Below are positions 3 to 62,042 of a stretch of DNA of 64,000 nt, in pieces. The position numbers and the translations under genes were made by a program. Below the pieces are notes generated by a model, which had not been told where the DNA came from, ran no database searches, and saw nothing but the letters and a program-made list of their open reading frames with translations. The stretch covers positions 1-64,000 of the forward strand of contig WYBR01000098.1 of assembly GCA_011525805.1 (NCBI GenBank). The letters are read 5' to 3'. Origin of the DNA: Vicinamibacteraceae bacterium. GTDB taxonomy: Bacteria > Planctomycetota > Phycisphaerae > Phycisphaerales > UBA5793. Within the stretch, counting starts at the first letter, position 1. Each line of letters opens with the position of its first letter.

Positions 3-2204
3 CGCGGCTCGTCCGGCAAGTCCGTGGAGTTCGAACACCTCACTCTCACCGTGACGTTTCCGGGCAGCAATCCCGCGACGCCGCGCGGCGCGCAGCCGCA
101 GGCGGCGAAGTTCAACTACTACATCGGCGATGATGAGAGCCGGTGGGCGAGCAACGTGCCGTCGTTCGGCGCGATCATCTACGAGAACCTCTACGACGGC
201 GTGGACCTCACTATCGCCGGCAACGACGACGGCGTCCTCAAGTACGAGTTCCACGTCGCGCCGGGCGCGGACTGGAATCAGATCCGCATCGCGTACGACG
301 GCATTGACTCGCTGTGCGTTGATGAAAGCGGCGACCTGCGCATCGCGACGAGTTTCGGCACACTGATGGATTCAGCGCCGCTTGTGTGGCAGGAGGATGT
401 TGAATCGCGGTTGAGTGGTGGAACGGCCGTAACTGGTGGAACGGCCGTCCCGGCCGTTCACCTTGATGGTGGTTGGGCGGCAGACGACGGGCGAGACGCC
501 CGTGCCACCAGTGACACCATCCCCGCGCGCTTTGAACTCGTCGATGACGCAACCTACCGCTTCGCCCTCGACGATCCGGTCGATCCCACGCGCGAACTCA
601 TCATCGATCCGGATGTGGAGTGGATGGTGTACTTGGGCGGAAGCGGCAGCGAGGATGCGGATGGATTAGCAATCGCTCCGAACGGGGATGTACTGGTCTC
701 GGGCACAACCTCCTCCTTTGACTTCGAACATCGCATCGGCCCGCACTACGGTCCCGACGACACGTTCATCCTGCGCATGCTCCCGACGGGGGAAGTGCTC
801 TGGATGTCCTACGTCGGGGGCGAATTGGATGATTACGGACAAGCGCTGGCGGTAGACTCGGCTGGACGGGCGCTGGTGGTGGGCTTCACCTGGTCTCGCA
901 CGTTTGCCCGAGCCATTAATACCTATCGCGGCGGGTCGTGGGACGGCTTTTTGGCCGTCGTATCGCCGGGGGGCCAGATCGAATGGTCCGCATTCGTCGG
1001 CGGTAGTGCGAGCGATTCGGCCAACGCGGTCGCCGTGGATCAACGCGACAGAATCTGGATCGCGGGAAGCACAGGCTCTCCGAACTTGGAGTCACGTCTC
1101 AATGAACATCATGGAGGCGATACGGACGCCTTTGTATCAGTGCTGAGCCCGAGCGGTCAGACTGACTGGTCGATCTATCTCGGCGGTAGTGCATCCGAGA
1201 CTGTTCGCGCGATCACTTTGGATAGTCAGAGTGGGGCCGTCCTTACGGGCAGCACAGGTTCAGTCGACTTTGAGCATCGCGTCAATTCGTACTTCGGAGG
1301 CATCACCGATGGTTTCCTCACGAGCGTGTCATCCCAAGGCGTAGCCGGATCCATGTCTTATCTGGGCGGTTCCGGGCGCGACGCGGGTTCCGGAGTCGCT
1401 CTCCCTCCCGCTGGCGGCGTACGGATTGGCGGATGGACGGACTCGCCGGACTTCACAGGTCACGTAAACGAGTTCGGCGGGGGGCGCAACGATGCATTTC
1501 TGACGAGCATTGAGTCAGGCGGCGAGCTCGCATGGACGATCTATCTTGGAGGAGGTGGCGACGACTGGTCCAATGGTATTGCAACAGACTGTCGTGGGCG
1601 GACAATTGTTGCAGGTGGAGCCGATTCGTGGAATTTCCGGGGTCGATGGAACAACCGACTTGGCGGTGCATGGGACGGCTTTGTTGCAATCGTCGGACCG
1701 GACGCTCGGCAGGAGTGGATGAAGTTCATCGGTGGAAAGAACCAGGACGACGCAAAACGACCCATCCTTGCCGCGGATGAAGTCATCTACACGGTCGGCG
1801 TGACGTCGTCTCCGGCATTCCGCGGCCGAGTCAACGAGTTTCACGGCGGATCGTACGACGCGTTCCTCACGCGCCTCGGACCTGAGCCGATGGTCTCGGC
1901 GACGACTTCATGCCCCAGCGGTGGGGCCGCGACCATCCAGTGGTCTCGAGCAAGGCCCGAGGGACGCGTTGTCCTCTTGTACGCCCGCGAACAGGCGTTG
2001 CTTCGCATACCCGATGGCATTTACTGTGCGGGCACGCTCTTGATGCTCGGTACGGACCATCTTCAGTTGGTGTTTGCAGGCACCTCCGACCCGAACGGTT
2101 CGGGAAGTCTGAACATCAATGCCGGCCCGGGCGCCTGCGGCGGGTACCTGCAACTGCTCGACCTTTCAACCTGCGCTACGAGCAATGTGGCGAGGATTGA
2201 ATAG
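3..2204 (+). CDS. Secreted SBBP beta-propeller protein, 5' partial
   Basis: The frame is open through the left edge, so the N-terminus and any signal peptide are outside the window; GTG at 24 is only the first visible in-frame start codon. The first ~120 residues resemble the domain that usually precedes SBBP repeats (YEFHVAPGADW). Seven SBBP-type repeats follow (about residues 200-620 counted from GTG 24), each with a YLGGS-like strand and a GG-x-W/D-DaF strand, enough to close one seven-bladed propeller. The last ~100 residues are a separate domain (CPSGG, ACGGYLQLL, SNVARIE) that recurs in the small proteins at 31082-32904. Residues about 131-160 are encoded by palindromic repeat DNA. Ligand unknown; probably surface or periplasmic. 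Confidence 0.85.
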   Translation, partial: RGSSGKSVEFEHLTLTVTFPGSNPATPRGAQPQAAKFNYYIGDDESRWASNVPSFGAIIYENLYDGVDLTIAGNDDGVLKYEFHVAPGADWNQIRIAYDGIDSLCVDESGDLRIATSFGTLMDSAPLVWQEDVESRLSGGTAVTGGTAVPAVHLDGGWAADDGRDARATSDTIPARFELVDDATYRFALDDPVDPTRELIIDPDVEWMVYLGGSGSEDADGLAIAPNGDVLVSGTTSSFDFEHRIGPHYGPDDTFILRMLPTGEVLWMSYVGGELDDYGQALAVDSAGRALVVGFTWSRTFARAINTYRGGSWDGFLAVVSPGGQIEWSAFVGGSASDSANAVAVDQRDRIWIAGSTGSPNLESRLNEHHGGDTDAFVSVLSPSGQTDWSIYLGGSASETVRAITLDSQSGAVLTGSTGSVDFEHRVNSYFGGITDGFLTSVSSQGVAGSMSYLGGSGRDAGSGVALPPAGGVRIGGWTDSPDFTGHVNEFGGGRNDAFLTSIESGGELAWTIYLGGGGDDWSNGIATDCRGRTIVAGGADSWNFRGRWNNRLGGAWDGFVAIVGPDARQEWMKFIGGKNQDDAKRPILAADEVIYTVGVTSSPAFRGRVNEFHGGSYDAFLTRLGPEPMVSATTSCPSGGAATIQWSRARPEGRVVLLYAREQALLRIPDGIYCAGTLLMLGTDHLQLVFAGTSDPNGSGSLNINAGPGACGGYLQLLDLSTCATSNVARIE
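411..503. repeat. Two palindromic elements inside a coding region
   Basis: At 435-462 lies a hairpin with arms GAACGGCCG/CGGCCGTTC around a TCC loop, preceded by a direct copy of its left arm at about 416-429. At 487-503 lies ACGGGCG-AGA-CGCCCGT. Both keep the reading frame of the surrounding gene and encode a Gly/Ala/Asp-rich linker between the N-terminal domain and the propeller. Such hairpins are typical of dispersed REP-like repeats. Confidence 0.75.
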
Positions 2205-9537: not shown

Positions 9538-10329
9538 TCAGCCGACGGCCCATTCGCTTCGGACCTCGGATCGCAGATCAACGAGGCTGTAGCCGAAACT
9601 CCGCAGCCGCGAGTCGAGCGTGCGCTCCGCCCTGCGGATGCTGCGGCCGTTGAAGAACTCCCGCTTCCAGGCCTCCCATTGCGTGAAGTACGACTCGTTG
9701 ACGTCGGGTTTGACCTCGCGGCTGACTTCGACCGGATCGAGTCCCACAAATCGGAAGGTTTCCGCGAGGGCCTCTGCAGGGCGAGTGACGAGATGCTCGT
9801 AGTGAATGACCTTGGCGCGGCGGAGGTGCGGGAAATCCTGCCTCATGATCTCGTGGCAGACGGCCCAATGCTCCACGAGCCGGGAGAGCGAGGTGCGCCG
9901 CTTCCACTTCTTGGTCGCGCCCGCGACCGCGACCGGATGGCGGAGGATGAAGACGAAACAGGAGTTGGGGAACATCGCCTGGAGGAACCGTGCCTTGATG
10001 AGGTTTGGCGGCGACTTTTCGACGAGATGGGTGCGCGAAGTGTCCCAGTGGCGAGACCACTCCTCCCACAGGCGCCGGCGATTGTCGTCGGTGACGAGCG
10101 AGGAGGTCTCAGTGAGGTGCATCTCGGGCGCGAAGCCGAACTTCCCCGGCCCGCCGTAGACGCTGGCGCGTGGAAAGACGGTCTGGAGGTGTTGTCCCTC
10201 GTCCTCGGGCGCGCCGGTGTCGTGGAACCCTGAGGTAGAGGAGTGATCGGCGAGGCATCGCGCCAGGAGTGAAGTGCCGCTGCGATGCAGGCCGCCGATG
10301 AAGATGAACGAGTGGTGGCTGGGGATCAT
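9538..10329 (-). CDS. Sulfotransferase (PAPS-dependent)
   Basis: A 263-aa sulfotransferase-fold protein. The 5'-phosphosulfate loop GLHRSGTSLLA is near residue 15; a 3'-phosphate-binding region FILRHPVAVAG lies mid-protein; the sequence ends in the helical region common to the family. It probably sulfates a sugar of the exopolymer or a lipid-linked intermediate, as inferred from its place in the operon. The start at ATG 10329 is the Met just before the first strand (MIPSHHSFIFIGG); no good Shine-Dalgarno site. A much longer open frame continues upstream but only shadows the polymerase gene. Confidence 0.85.
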   Translation of the reverse strand: MIPSHHSFIFIGGLHRSGTSLLARCLADHSSTSGFHDTGAPEDEGQHLQTVFPRASVYGGPGKFGFAPEMHLTETSSLVTDDNRRRLWEEWSRHWDTSRTHLVEKSPPNLIKARFLQAMFPNSCFVFILRHPVAVAGATKKWKRRTSLSRLVEHWAVCHEIMRQDFPHLRRAKVIHYEHLVTRPAEALAETFRFVGLDPVEVSREVKPDVNESYFTQWEAWKREFFNGRSIRRAERTLDSRLRSFGYSLVDLRSEVRSEWAVG

Positions 10330-31081: not shown

Positions 31082-31471
31082 ATGAATGCGAACCGTTCAC
31101 GCGGAGTCGCGCTCATCGCGGCGCTGTCGCTGTCTCTTCTTACCACTCCAGCGCTGGCGCAGCCGGTGTTGACGGTCGAGGGATCGTGCCCCGGATCCAT
31201 GCGCGCTCTGGCTGAAGGGATGTACCCCCGCGCGGTCGTGTACCTTTACTTCTCGCCGGAACGCGGCTTCTACGAGTTTCCTCCGTTCCACATGTGCTAT
31301 GGCGTCGAAGTCGGGCTTAATGTGCATCGGCTCTACTACCTCGGGAGTACGCGTGCGGATGACTTCGGCACGGCGCTTTGGGAGGGCGATGCTGGGCCGC
31401 GCGCGTGCGGCGGCTTCATGCAGGCGATGGACAACCGCTGCCAAATCTCTAACGTCGTCCAAGTTCCGTAG
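31082..31471 (+). CDS. Small secreted repeat-family protein, copy 1
   Basis: 129 aa. Signal peptide ending ALAQP, then a single ~95-residue domain: LTVEGSCPG, VVYLYFSPERG, CYGVEVGLN, ACGGFMQAM, SNVVQVP. Four conserved Cys could form two disulfides. Most like copy 4. GGGGAG upstream supports the start. The same domain caps the propeller protein at the left edge of the window. Function unknown; probably a surface or periplasmic module. Confidence 0.8.
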   Translation: MNANRSRGVALIAALSLSLLTTPALAQPVLTVEGSCPGSMRALAEGMYPRAVVYLYFSPERGFYEFPPFHMCYGVEVGLNVHRLYYLGSTRADDFGTALWEGDAGPRACGGFMQAMDNRCQISNVVQVP

Positions 31472-31482
31472 GAGGGACTGCC

Positions 31483-31890
31483 ATGCACGCGGATTATTCA
31501 CACGGGCTGGCGCTCATCGCGGCGGGGGTCATGCCCATGTTGAGCGCGCCGGCGATGGCGCAGTACGAACCCGTGCTGTCGCTGGACGGGAGGTGTCCGG
31601 GAGTGATGCGGGCGGAAGTCAGTGGTGCGCGTCCGCGCAGCGGTCTCTCGCTGCTCTTCGCGTCGGAAACCGGGAGCGTGACAATCCCCTGGTTCTGGCA
31701 GCACTGTCCGGGCGTCGAACTGGGGCTCGGGCGGCGCAACCTGCGCGAAGTCGCGTCGGGAACCACTGACGAGTCCGGCAACCTCATCATCGAGGGCCGC
31801 GTCCGCTCCCGCGCCTGCGGCGGGTACCTTCAGGTGCTTACATTCCCCCTCGGCGGCTGCCTCACGAGCAATGTCGTGCAGATCGAGTGA
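31483..31890 (+). CDS. Small secreted repeat-family protein, copy 2
   Basis: 135 aa; signal peptide ending AMAQ, then the same domain in its most divergent form: LDGRCPGVM, LSLLFASETG, CPGVELGLG, ACGGYLQVL, SNVVQIE. Closest of the four to the C-terminal domain of the propeller protein at 3-2204 (both have ACGGYLQ). GGAGGG precedes ATG 31483. Begins 11 nt after copy 1. Confidence 0.8.
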   Translation: MHADYSHGLALIAAGVMPMLSAPAMAQYEPVLSLDGRCPGVMRAEVSGARPRSGLSLLFASETGSVTIPWFWQHCPGVELGLGRRNLREVASGTTDESGNLIIEGRVRSRACGGYLQVLTFPLGGCLTSNVVQIE

Positions 31891-32025
31891 CGGGCTGCAC
31901 CCGTCAGGAGGCGAAGGCAGGGTCAAGCCCCTGATGGACGCTCGGGGTGAGGCGGGGGCGAGGGTGCACAGTCTCGGTTGTGGGGGCGGAAAGGAGATGG
32001 TCATGAGTGCGAGACGATCACGCGG
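31870..32025. repeat. Duplicated intergenic spacer, copy A
   Basis: From the last codons of array copy 2 through the start of copy 3. It matches 32380-32534 closely at both ends (ATGTCGTGCAGATCGAGTGA at the left, GGCGGAAAGGAGA and GAGTGCGAGACGATCA at the right). It contains the hairpin GACGGG-CTGCA-CCCGTC (31889-31905) overlapping the stop codon. Marks the unit of a segmental tandem duplication. Confidence 0.85.
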
Positions 32026-32401
32026 TTTCACTCGTTGGTCCCTGTGCGCGGCGGGGGCGCTCGCCCTGTGGAGCGCTCCGGCGCTGGCGCAGCCGGTGCT
32101 GACGCTCGAAGGATCGTGCCCCGGACGGATGCTTGCGCAAGTCAGCGGAAGCAGCCCGCGCGGTGTAGTACGTCTCTACTTCTCCCCGCATCGCGGGTCG
32201 TATGCGTTTCCGCCCTTCCATCCCTGCTATGGTGTCGAGATCGGCCTGGACCCCCGACGAATTCAACACGTGGGGACGACGCGCGCCGATCAGGCCGGTA
32301 TCGCCAGATTCAACGGCGACGCCGGACCCGCTGCATGCGGAGGCTTCCTACAGGCGATGAGCGACTTTTGTGAGGTGACCAATGTCGTGCAGATCGAGTG
32401 A
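32003..32401 (+). CDS. Small secreted repeat-family protein, copy 3
   Basis: 132 aa; signal peptide ending ALAQP, then LTLEGSCPGRM, VVRLYFSPHRG, CYGVEIGLD, ACGGFLQAM, TNVVQIE. ATG 32003 has AAGGAG at 7 nt; ATG 31997 is too close to it. Its flanks are duplicated around copy 4, so copies 3 and 4 arose by tandem duplication of gene plus spacer. Confidence 0.82.
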   Translation: MSARRSRGFTRWSLCAAGALALWSAPALAQPVLTLEGSCPGRMLAQVSGSSPRGVVRLYFSPHRGSYAFPPFHPCYGVEIGLDPRRIQHVGTTRADQAGIARFNGDAGPAACGGFLQAMSDFCEVTNVVQIE

Positions 32402-32534
32402 CGGGCTGCACCCGTCAGGGGGCGAAGGCAGGGTCAAATCCCTGATGGACGGCCGGGATGAGGCGGGGGAGTCAGTGTACAACTTCAGCGACGGGGGGCG
32501 GAAAGGAGACAGCCATGAGTGCGAGACGATCAGT
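32380..32534. repeat. Duplicated intergenic spacer, copy B
   Basis: Second copy of the spacer at 31870-32025, with the same hairpin at 32399-32415 and the same AAAGGAGA ribosome-binding site; the middle part has diverged. Confidence 0.85.
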
Positions 32535-32904
32535 CAGGCTCGCCCTGTGGGGCTTGGGCGCGACGGTGCTTTGGGCTGCGCCGGCGATGGCGCAGCCGGT
32601 ACTCACGCTCGAAGGGTCGTGCCCCGGACCGATGCGCGCTCTGGCGGAGGGGATGCATCCGGAGGATGTTGTGTACCTGTACTTCTCGCCTGAGCGTGGC
32701 TCGTACACATTTCCACCGTTGCATCAATGTTATGGCGTCGAGGTTGGCCTGAACGTTCGTCGGCTTCACTATGTGGGCAGTACACGGGCAGATCCGAACG
32801 GGTTGGCAACGTGGGAAGGGACTGCTGGGCCGGCTGCATGTGGAGGCTTTCTCCAAGCCATGGACCGAGTCTGCAGAATCACGAATGTGGCAGAGATTCC
32901 GTGA
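32515..32904 (+). CDS. Small secreted repeat-family protein, copy 4
   Basis: 129 aa; signal peptide ending AMAQP, then LTLEGSCPGPM, VVYLYFSPERG, CYGVEVGLN, ACGGFLQAM, TNVAEIP. Its mature part is nearest to copy 1 (both MRALAEGM) while its upstream spacer is nearest to that of copy 3, which suggests gene conversion or repeated unequal exchange. Start ATG 32515 with AAAGGAG. Confidence 0.82.
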   Translation: MSARRSVRLALWGLGATVLWAAPAMAQPVLTLEGSCPGPMRALAEGMHPEDVVYLYFSPERGSYTFPPLHQCYGVEVGLNVRRLHYVGSTRADPNGLATWEGTAGPAACGGFLQAMDRVCRITNVAEIP

Positions 32905-32964: not shown

Positions 32965-34428
32965 ATGGAATGTGTGCTTTCTGCGGCTTCGTTGTTTGTG
33001 GTCATGGGCAGCCTGACTACCATGGTACCTGCCGCGCTGGGTCAAGATTGCGGGGCGGCGCTCGACTTCGGCTTTGAGGCGCAATCATCGACGAATCCCG
33101 GCGGGTCGGACTGCGTTCTGGCGGTAAGCAGCAGCCACATTCTTGCAGGGACAAACGAGGGACTCTGGTTGTTCGATCGGGAAGGTAATCAAGTAGATTT
33201 TGCTGTTCATGGCGACTTCTTTCCTTCTCCGATCGATCCTCTCAGCGATCCGATCGTGCGATATGACTCAGAGTCTTCAAGATTCTTTGCTCTCATCATG
33301 AGCGGAAATCTGCAGGATCCGGACATCGCCATGGCCGTTTCAAAAACGTCTGAACCGACGCTCGATCCCGACGATTGGTACTTTTACGAATTCACTGACC
33401 TGCCGGGCAAGGTGGACTTTCCCAACATGAGCGTCGGCGAGGACTATGTTTATGTGACTTGGGCCAGGCTCCAGTCGGAGAGCCGCGAGCATGCCGTCAT
33501 CACATCGCTGGACAAGGCTGACCTCATCGCAGGCACGACGCCGACTCCGGCGGCCAAGCTGATTGACCCCGTGGATGGCCAGGAAACAACCCAGTACTTC
33601 CGCGCGATCGGCTGCGTGAAAATGCACGCCCAGCCCTCCTCCTCGATCGCTTACCTCCTCACGGACTCACACGCGGCGAGCGGGGTCAACACCTGGGTGC
33701 GCCTTTACGCTCTCGACGCATCTTCGAATTCCCTTTCTGAGTTCGTCTTGACGGTTTCCGACTACAACAAGGCACCCATCAAGATCAACTCCGCCGGAAC
33801 GGACGGCGAATTGACCTGCCATTGGGATTTCAAGTTTCCCGTGTACCGGAACGGATCTATCTGGGCGGCACACGCCATCGGCCCCGGCGACCCCGGCCAG
33901 GAACCCAAGACCGCCAAAGTGCGCTGGTACGAGATCGACATGAACGGCTGGCCGGTCAGCCAGGATTTTCCCGAACTCGTCCAGTACGGCACGATCAACC
34001 CCGGCAGCGCGGTCAGCGCGTGGTATCCCGCCATTCATGTGGATGACGACGGCAATGTCGCCATCGCCTACAACCAGGCGTCAGCGAGTCAGCATCCGGC
34101 GATCTACCGGCAGATTCGCAAGTGGTACGACGATGAGGGAGCATTGCGCGCCCCGCTTCTGCTCAAACAGAGCGAATCGTCTCCCGCCGGCAGCAACCCC
34201 TGGGCGGACTACAGCGCGATGGATGAGGATCCTGAGTATCCCGGCGTGATGTGGAGCCATCTCATGTGGTTCGAGGGGGAATCCACGCGCAAGACCTGGG
34301 TCGCGCGGACGGACCTCAACCAGTCGATGCCGCTGGCGATCTCGCCGACGACCACGCCGATCATGCGCGGCACGTACGTGACCTTGTCGGTCAAGGGCGC
34401 GGGGCCGGGCAACCTGGTGCGCTGGTAA
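32965..34428 (+). CDS. Secreted protein of unknown function, ended by an in-frame TAA
   Basis: 487 aa up to TAA 34426. Signal peptide (LFVVMGSLTTMVPAALGQ), then an extracellular region with repeated Asp/Gly/Trp strands (GNVAIAYNQASA, WYDDEGALR, WSHLMWFEGEST) suggestive of a beta-propeller. The stop falls inside a C-terminal domain of ~100 residues (YVTLSVKGAGPGNLVRW), the second half of which continues in frame after the TAA (34429-34650). Codon use is a little richer in A/T near the 5' end than in neighbours. Ligand unknown. Confidence 0.75.
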   Translation: MECVLSAASLFVVMGSLTTMVPAALGQDCGAALDFGFEAQSSTNPGGSDCVLAVSSSHILAGTNEGLWLFDREGNQVDFAVHGDFFPSPIDPLSDPIVRYDSESSRFFALIMSGNLQDPDIAMAVSKTSEPTLDPDDWYFYEFTDLPGKVDFPNMSVGEDYVYVTWARLQSESREHAVITSLDKADLIAGTTPTPAAKLIDPVDGQETTQYFRAIGCVKMHAQPSSSIAYLLTDSHAASGVNTWVRLYALDASSNSLSEFVLTVSDYNKAPIKINSAGTDGELTCHWDFKFPVYRNGSIWAAHAIGPGDPGQEPKTAKVRWYEIDMNGWPVSQDFPELVQYGTINPGSAVSAWYPAIHVDDDGNVAIAYNQASASQHPAIYRQIRKWYDDEGALRAPLLLKQSESSPAGSNPWADYSAMDEDPEYPGVMWSHLMWFEGESTRKTWVARTDLNQSMPLAISPTTTPIMRGTYVTLSVKGAGPGNLVRW

Positions 34429-34650
34429 TACTCGACGACCGGCTGCAGATCGGCGTACATCCCCGCCCTCGATGTAACACTGAATCTCGACACGGCCGAA
34501 CTCATCGGATCGAGCACGGCCGACGCCAACGGCGACGCGTCGAAGAGTTTCACCGTCCCCAACGACTTCCCCCTCGGCGTCGCGCACCTCCAGGCGGCCG
34601 AGGCGCAAAACACGTCGGCGGTGCTCGATGTGACGGTCTCGGGGCAGTGA
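34429..34650 (+). pseudogene. Continuation of the preceding gene beyond the premature TAA
   Basis: The same reading frame goes on for 73 codons to TGA 34648, with text that fits the rest of the C-terminal domain: YSTTGC, LDTAELIGSSTADANGD, QAAEAQNTSAVLDVTV. The C-terminus of the FG-GAP protein at 60483-62042 has matching landmarks (HSLGG, LFGSAVADADG, VVFQAIIRR), so this was coding. A single change in a Tyr codon (TAC/TAT to TAA) would explain it. Alternatives: sequencing error or readthrough. Confidence 0.75.
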
Positions 34651-60369: not shown

Positions 60370-60482
60370 GAGTTCGCACTCGACAAAACGGACACGTTGA
60401 TCGAAATTAGGAATTCGGCGGCTCCCTCTTGCGGCGGTTCCGCAACGCCCGTACACTCGACTGTCGGAGGAAGGAGGGGCTG

Positions 60483-62042
60483 ATGTCCCGAAAGCGCAAC
60501 CGTCCCTCAAGGCAACAGGCAGGAAGCAGCGCCCTCGCGTGCCTGGGCCTCGGCACGCTCGCTCTCAATCTGCCGGCCCACGCTCAGTTCCGCTTCGCGC
60601 CGCCTCATCGCTCCACACTTCCCGGGGTCGAGGGGGCGGCGATCGCGCTCGGGGATCTGAACGGCGATGGGAAGATGGACGCGGCCGTCGCCGGCTACTT
60701 CTACCCCGACGGTCCCAGCCGGCTCTACGCCTATTTCCACCTCGATCGCGGCCTCGTGGAGCGCCGGTTCATCATCGAGCGCCCGACGGCGACGTTCACT
60801 CTGGCCGCGGGCGATCTGGACGGCGATGGACATGTCGATCTCGCGTGGAGCGAGCCCGACGGCATCGGAATCTGGTACAACAGCGGGGACGGCGTTCACG
60901 GGCAGTTCGTCCTGGAGGCGGCGTTCCACTATGGTCGGCGCTTCCGGCTGGCTGACCTGGATGGGGACGGCGTGCTGGACATCGCCGTTGTGCTTGGGCC
61001 CCCGAGCGGCCCGGCGCCGCAGATCGAAGCGAGACTCTCGCGCGGCCGGGGACAGTTCGAGCCGCGACTCATCTACGAGCATTCGCAGCCAGGGTACGGA
61101 GCGCGGGATCTGGTGCTGGGCGACATCGACGGCGACGGAGACATCGACGCCGCGGTCGTCTTCACGCATCAGGACTCCGGCTCCACCTACGACTCGGAAC
61201 TTGTGTACCTCGCCAACGACGGCCTGGGCGATTTTTCGCAGCGAGCCCGGTGGCCGCTGCCCTGGCGCAACGGCGTGGACACCTATCCGCAGGCGATCAC
61301 GATGGGCGACCTGGACGGCGACGGCGACCTCGACTTCTTCATCGCCACCGGCGAGCACTATCACTCCGTGGAACTCTTCGCATTCCGCAACGACGGGGAC
61401 CGAATCACGCAGACGGCGATACTCGGATCAGCCTACGGCTATCGCGTGCGCGTGCTCACCACTTCCGACCTCGATCTGGACGGCAACGTGGAGGTGCTCT
61501 TCGCAGGGCAATCGGATCTCTACGTCTTTCGCAACCGGGGCAATGGGAGTTTCAACACGAGACAGACGATCGAACTCGGCCGCGGCAAGGCCGTCAGCGT
61601 CGCAACGGCCGACCTCTATTGGAGTGGGCAGTGGGACATCGCGGCGCTTGTGGGAACTCGCTTTCTCTCGATTGTCCGCAACACGACATTCGAGCAGGGA
61701 CCGCGGCTGTTCGTCGGCCCGCTCACGCAGGGCGAGCCGGTGTCGCTGGCGGTGCGCCATGCCCAGCCAGGCGAAACCGTGCATTTCCTCCACTCGCTCG
61801 GCGGCGCCGGCCACGCGCACGGCCAACCGCTCCTCGGCGGGATGGTCCTCGACCTGCTCGAACCGATCACGCTCTTCGGCAGCGCCGTGGCCGACGCCGA
61901 CGGAACCGCCGTGCTGCGGCGCATCGTCCCCCCCAACGCGCCGTTGAGAAACGTCGTGTTCCAGGCCATCATTCGGCGCGGGCCGGGCGGAGAGGATTCC
62001 GTCAAGACGCCATTCCGCACCGCGCGGATTGAGCCGAACTGA
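60483..62042 (+). CDS. Secreted FG-GAP/VCBS beta-propeller protein
   Basis: 519 aa: signal peptide (LGTLALNLPAHAQ), seven calcium-binding FG-GAP-like repeats (LGDLNGDGKMDAAVAG, LADLDGDGVLDIAVV, LGDIDGDGDIDAAVVF, MGDLDGDGDLDFFIATG and others), enough for a seven-bladed propeller, then a ~105-residue C-terminal domain (LTQGEPVSLAVRHAQPG, LFGSAVADADG) shared with the interrupted protein at 32965-34650. GGAGGAAGGAGG precedes ATG 60483. Likely surface adhesin or carbohydrate binder. Confidence 0.88.
   Translation: MSRKRNRPSRQQAGSSALACLGLGTLALNLPAHAQFRFAPPHRSTLPGVEGAAIALGDLNGDGKMDAAVAGYFYPDGPSRLYAYFHLDRGLVERRFIIERPTATFTLAAGDLDGDGHVDLAWSEPDGIGIWYNSGDGVHGQFVLEAAFHYGRRFRLADLDGDGVLDIAVVLGPPSGPAPQIEARLSRGRGQFEPRLIYEHSQPGYGARDLVLGDIDGDGDIDAAVVFTHQDSGSTYDSELVYLANDGLGDFSQRARWPLPWRNGVDTYPQAITMGDLDGDGDLDFFIATGEHYHSVELFAFRNDGDRITQTAILGSAYGYRVRVLTTSDLDLDGNVEVLFAGQSDLYVFRNRGNGSFNTRQTIELGRGKAVSVATADLYWSGQWDIAALVGTRFLSIVRNTTFEQGPRLFVGPLTQGEPVSLAVRHAQPGETVHFLHSLGGAGHAHGQPLLGGMVLDLLEPITLFGSAVADADGTAVLRRIVPPNAPLRNVVFQAIIRRGPGGEDSVKTPFRTARIEPN

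Follow-up and report, generated by a model that had tools for sequence, protein, structure and literature searches.

A predicted Ig-like C-terminal domain on unrelated exported proteins of a planctomycete, and a tandem array of its cargo-free members

The T9SS CTD is a C-terminal beta-sandwich of about 100 aa that follows varied, signal-peptide-bearing cargo, occurs on dozens to 230 proteins per genome, and has been reported to be restricted to Bacteroidota (PMC10202324). Widespread C-terminal domains on exported proteins have led repeatedly to new machineries, i.e., PEP-CTERM to exosortase, MYXO-CTERM to myxosortase, and the CTD to the T9SS. Here we describe four genes in a row in a planctomycete genome. 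They encode, without cargo, a predicted Ig-like domain that about 140 otherwise unrelated exported proteins carry at their C-terminus. From its distribution, we somewhat favour the view that this domain, once folded, serves as a C-terminal signal for sorting or anchoring, which would be recognised in the periplasm or at the outer membrane in the manner of the T9SS CTD, although the domain is not a member of that family.

The window analysed in this study is the whole stretch of 64,000 nt covering positions 1-64,000, forward strand, of contig WYBR01000098.1 (assembly GCA_011525805.1). Four tandem paralogous ORFs at 31082-32904 were confirmed as real (Table 1), and the initial annotation was right in describing them as exported paralogs of ~130 aa with a common domain. 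Each protein is composed of a signal peptide with an AxA|Q end and one four-cysteine domain of ~100 residues bearing the signature CPG..C.GVE..ACGG.LQ..C..NVV. Copies 4, 3 and 2 are 67%, 61% and 44% identical to copy 1, respectively, in the alignment; copies 1 and 4, which had been regarded as the closest pair, are indeed sisters in the tree, albeit with weak support (92/58). The intergenic gaps in the array are as short as 11, 112 and 113 bp, and the next gene, encoding an exported protein, begins 60 bp after copy 4, so that from their spacing the five genes look like one transcription unit.

Table 1. Domain copies, spacers and the adjoining gene in the window.
Feature	Coordinates	Strand	Description
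Domain in large ORF	1899..2201	+	C-terminal in a large ORF entering from the window start
Copy 1	31082..31471	+	129 aa; signal peptide and stand-alone C-terminal-type domain (domain about 31172-31468)
Copy 2	31483..31890	+	135 aa; divergent subfamily; nearest relative in another species' array (G004:C59)
Spacer/leader 1	31866..32002	+	end of the copy 2 reading frame; hairpin on its stop codon (31888-31906); leader and RBS for copy 3
Copy 3	32003..32401	+	132 aa; signal peptide and stand-alone domain
Spacer/leader 2	32377..32514	+	end of the copy 3 reading frame; hairpin on its stop codon (32399-32417); leader and RBS for copy 4
Copy 4	32515..32904	+	129 aa; signal peptide and stand-alone domain
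Downstream exported-protein gene	32965..34647	+	487 aa; in-frame TAA 34426-34428; variant C-terminal domain 34438-34632 behind the stop
Diverged domain copy	61731..61970	+	close to the C-terminal end of an ORF of 543 aa (60410-62039)

The domain is no local novelty. With copy 4 as a single query, 136 places were hit in the 4.5-Mb genome of the same organism at E<=1, and an iterated profile over the fetched genome regions yielded 150 domain copies, 145 of them complete; for the contig scan, the first profile (A2) was too diverse, and a tighter one was used instead. Searching the genome for the domain had been proposed together with the initial annotation, and the outcome is clear: nearly all of the about 150 copies are C-terminal, the complete ones ending 0-7 residues ahead of the stop codon in 142 of 145 cases, and two copies were found in the same ORF only once. 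About 115 copies lie behind long N-terminal parts, 110 of which have a signal-peptide-like start as called by a simple heuristic rule. The N-terminal parts are unrelated to one another, as 99 of them match 43 different Pfam families, including kelch, SBBP and FG-GAP propellers, subtilases, multicopper oxidase, glucose/sorbosone dehydrogenase, CHRD and beta-helix. Approximately 28 copies, including the four of the array, are stand-alone (a heuristic list gave 29, of which two were start-choice artefacts, and missed copy 2 of the array). Altogether the about 140 domain proteins make up roughly 3-4% of the genes.

No family covering the domain, nor any significant match, was found in sequence searches of Pfam, NCBIfam and the PDB, the last with both a single copy and the profile, and no description of the domain was found in the open-access literature. 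An undescribed domain is thus the best reading with respect to those sequence collections and that literature. As neither Pfam nor NCBIfam has a model for it, the annotation of about 140 proteins in each genome is probably incomplete. We also noticed that large carriers at two loci (L127, 7297-9660; L050, 5963-9007) have at their ends a relative of the domain that lacks cysteines (..GYSTSG..VSDPAGTAVW..VWFQAAQYNQASNVV), which suggests that there are further subfamilies poorly caught by the profile.

AlphaFold2, run on 46 sequences, predicted the domain to be an eight-stranded Ig-like beta-sandwich (pLDDT 97.3). Foldseek gave no match against the PDB at E<=1e-3, and a second structural look retrieved Ig-like beta-sandwiches with Z up to 9.0, namely a pectate lyase module, neocarzinostatin and NK receptors. 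As the fold is common and generic, we did not assign a family name from these matches. The cysteines at domain positions 7, 42, 79 and 91 were present in full in 116 copies (CCCC), six copies showed the pattern xCxC and none showed CxCx; cysteines 7 and 79 were lost jointly in the six copies, in which 42 and 91 were kept. From this pattern of joint loss, the domain probably contains two disulfides, 7-79 and 42-91.

Five related genomes are rich in the domain, with 64-103 matches in those of the same genus and 30 in the sister genus (E<=1e-5), and zero matches were found in 25 genomes from other families of the same order. The named relatives with the domain are MAGs (Phycisphaerales UBA5793, planctomycete PLA5, Planctomycetota KLAP200 and PNC21), at whose loci the domain is C-terminal in 44 of 44 cases. 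In a scan of the phylum, 10 of 294 genomes, including that of the window, had matches; a distant family of Planctomycetota has up to 34 copies, again at the protein end, and in one distant genome two of the four copies are internal. Exosortases were found throughout the order, in nearly all genomes, and PEP-CTERM tails numbered 10-12 in the genus of the window versus 35-135 in several sister-family genomes, as if the domain had replaced the PEP-CTERM tag in this genus. Such a replacement is not general, because three sister genomes (G007, G012 and G017) have few PEP-CTERM tails and no domain. C-terminal tags vary widely by family in this order, PEP-CTERM ranging from 0 to 135 per genome (G009 versus G000-G004). 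Since secretins were present in all genomes tested, an export route of the type II kind across the outer membrane may exist; genomes that have the domain and genomes that lack it both contain exosortases and secretins. A search of 21 genomes for SprA_N (SprA of the T9SS) gave zero matches, and the control genomes were silent as well.

The cargo-free copies stand in a row with exported proteins bearing a variant of the same domain. This arrangement occurs at four sites in the genome, each with one to four stand-alone genes and, behind them, the gene at 32965 or a paralog of it with a variant domain; besides the window, the sites are on contigs C72, C65 and C38. These exported-protein genes are mostly damaged, by the in-frame TAA in the window, an in-frame TAG on C65 and a frameshift on C38, and the one on C72 alone is open. 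The TAG on C65 (genome G000, locus L050), at about 9755-9757, lies one codon beyond the position of the TAA in the window gene. In both genes the stop stands immediately before the variant domain, and the domain frame is open beyond it; these could be pseudogenes, cases of tag loss or cases of readthrough. At four loci (L132, L134, L135 and L075), a subtilase (S8) whose variant of the domain has two cysteines precedes one to three stand-alone copies. In genome G004, the subtilase pair adjoins the ugd gene; in the window, this gene and the array are 4 kb apart.

The initial annotation had taken the array for a locus under recent unequal exchange or gene conversion, which is supported for the spacers but not for the genes themselves. 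Positions 31866-31970 and 32377-32481 align without gaps at 89% identity (93/105), versus 50/105 for the next-best ungapped match to this 105-mer in the whole window, and thus the spacers are duplicated as had been claimed. The identity is 96% over the first 60 nt, which include the last codons, then 83%, 53% and, at the RBS, 90%. The hairpin TGACGGG-CTGCA-CCCGTCA, said to overlap both the stop codon and the RBS, does sit on the stop codon in both spacers, but the RBS is located ~90 nt beyond it, close to the next ATG, within the duplicated spacer and outside the hairpin. The leader, lacking the stop-codon hairpin, also precedes the paralogs on contigs C72 and C65 of the same genome (78-82% identity). 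A short conversion or unequal-exchange tract laid over this inherited leader would best explain the spacer identity, given 96% identity at the tails of copies 2 and 3 and in the stretch that follows, between coding copies that are saturated; recent exchange looks confined to the spacers and the seven codons preceding them. Alternatively, an RNA element may be under constraint, with neither Rfam nor folding in favour of this view: the Rfam scan of the array region gave no match, the spacer RNAs were no more stable than their shuffles (z -0.3 and +0.5), and we make no claim of an RNA element.

Third-position identity among the coding copies of the array is 33-48%, i.e., saturated. Ortholog pairs of stand-alone genes across species gave dN/dS of 0.06-0.24, and comparisons within arrays gave 0.10-0.16 at dS 1.4-2.5 (dS being about 2 or saturated for the array of the window), so that no diversifying selection was indicated in copies or orthologs; these values are averages over the whole domain, in which a few fast sites could hide. 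On these grounds the array genes are, as judged from sequence comparison, old duplicates under purifying selection. The PLA5 genome (G002:C187) holds a partial ortholog of copy 1, which is 96% identical, adjoins the same lipoprotein gene and gives a dS of 0.12 to copy 1; the array copies are older than the split from PLA5. The PLA5 ortholog (L130, 1-160) breaks into a transposase-like frame near the contig end, by either an insertion or an assembly join.

The tree of 42 stand-alone domains comprises two clades. Copies 1, 3 and 4 cluster with copies of the related genome G001, and copy 2 with a G004 copy (100/99) and two copies on contig C65 of its own genome. Within the same clade, the arrays have 4, 2, 1 and 1 members in the genome of the window, 5 and 1 in G001, 2 and 2 in G003 and 3 in G004. 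A comparison of copy number with relatives, as proposed alongside the initial annotation, thus revealed differences in both number (1-5 per array) and composition; each relative is represented by a single assembly per species, derived from a metagenome, and the variation is that between species. The lipoprotein gene upstream of the array was found in four other genomes without adjoining array copies, and a search by synteny showed no clean empty site in these four, where the other neighbours of this gene differ too. The array would have arisen by old duplication, with a later and localised exchange in the spacers.

The domain occurs once per protein, strictly at the C-terminus and behind cargo of unrelated kinds, which together is the pattern of a sorting or anchoring signal, and its genome-wide occurrence at this place makes the gene row point to an unrecognised sorting tag and not to variable antigens. 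The carriers would be exported by Sec, the domain would fold in the periplasm, and the folded domain would be recognised by an outer-membrane machinery for secretion or surface anchoring, as the T9SS CTD is. Less certainly, the cargo-free copies could be small subunits of the surface or matrix, or could act as free tags by occupying the machinery or signalling to it. It is also plausible, if somewhat less likely than not, that Phycisphaerales-type planctomycetes have a dedicated, hitherto unrecognised outer-membrane pathway for secretion or anchoring, analogous to but independent of the T9SS, which reads the domain on about 140 proteins, and that the arrays supply free tags structuring or regulating this pathway.

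The Ig-like fold is also typical of binding and adhesion modules. The domain may instead be an ordinary accessory Ig-like module that binds polysaccharide or matrix and was spread to protein ends by chance, the stand-alone copies being small secreted binders. The FnIII-like pectate lyase modules among the structural matches and the extracellular type of the carriers would fit such a module, but accessory binding modules are common in internal and tandem positions, whereas this domain is nearly always single and at the last residues; we regard this alternative, the strongest of the competing ones, as rather unlikely. The purifying selection described above disfavours two further readings. Variable surface antigens or inhibitors, kept variable through recent unequal exchange as the initial annotation had proposed, would account for the tandem copies, the mosaic spacers and the copy-number differences between species, and the stand-alone genes of the second clade often lie behind a subtilase gene with the variant domain, as an inhibitor might. 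Nevertheless, dN/dS strongly disfavours this reading, the copies predate the PLA5 split, and the same domain is found on about 115 other carriers, which are mostly non-proteases, as well as on the subtilases themselves. We therefore regard it as very unlikely. That the stand-alone genes are functionless leftovers of domain shuffling, which lost their cargo, would agree with the often broken exported-protein genes beside them (in-frame TAA, TAG, frameshift) and with the interrupted copy 1 in PLA5. Leftovers are, however, hard to reconcile with stand-alone orthologs that keep open frames and low dN/dS across species and with a leader common to paralogs, and we consider them very unlikely.

If the domain is genuinely a sorting or anchoring signal, the machinery can be sought with the domain as a specific tag, with its carriers as a list of substrates and with its phylogenetic profile, the cargo-free copies being natural minimal substrates, and the domain bears on how surface proteins are placed in these planctomycetes. 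Among the known systems, the FnIII/Ig-like accessory domains (the PelI module of pectate lyase and the neocarzinostatin fold) are the best structural matches (Z about 9), but they share 10-18% identity, a common fold and no detected sequence relation with the domain. PEP-CTERM/exosortase is likewise a genome-wide C-terminal tag on exported proteins in the same order (PMC1569441), but its tag, described by a 24-position model, is a short tail that includes a transmembrane segment, whereas the planctomycete domain is folded, 100 aa long and devoid of such a segment; domain copies gave no match to PF07589, their carriers ending in the folded domain. MYXO-CTERM/myxosortase also sorts dozens of surface proteins per genome by a C-terminal tag (PMC11980579), which is a short tripartite tail with a signature motif and an invariant Cys, without a folded domain. 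The T9SS CTD (types A, B and C; PF18962, TIGR04183) differs in that the planctomycete domain has four conserved cysteines and no Pfam or NCBIfam match; no T9SS model (PF18962/TIGR04183) was matched by 40 domain copies at E<=0.1. As for likeness to the type A CTD, the predicted Ig-like beta-sandwich agrees with it, although a fold so common is weak evidence. What the two systems share beyond the fold is a domain of ~100 aa placed at the C-terminus of varied exported cargo, as seen here in the 142 of 145 complete copies at the protein end and the 110 of 115 carriers with a signal-peptide-like start.
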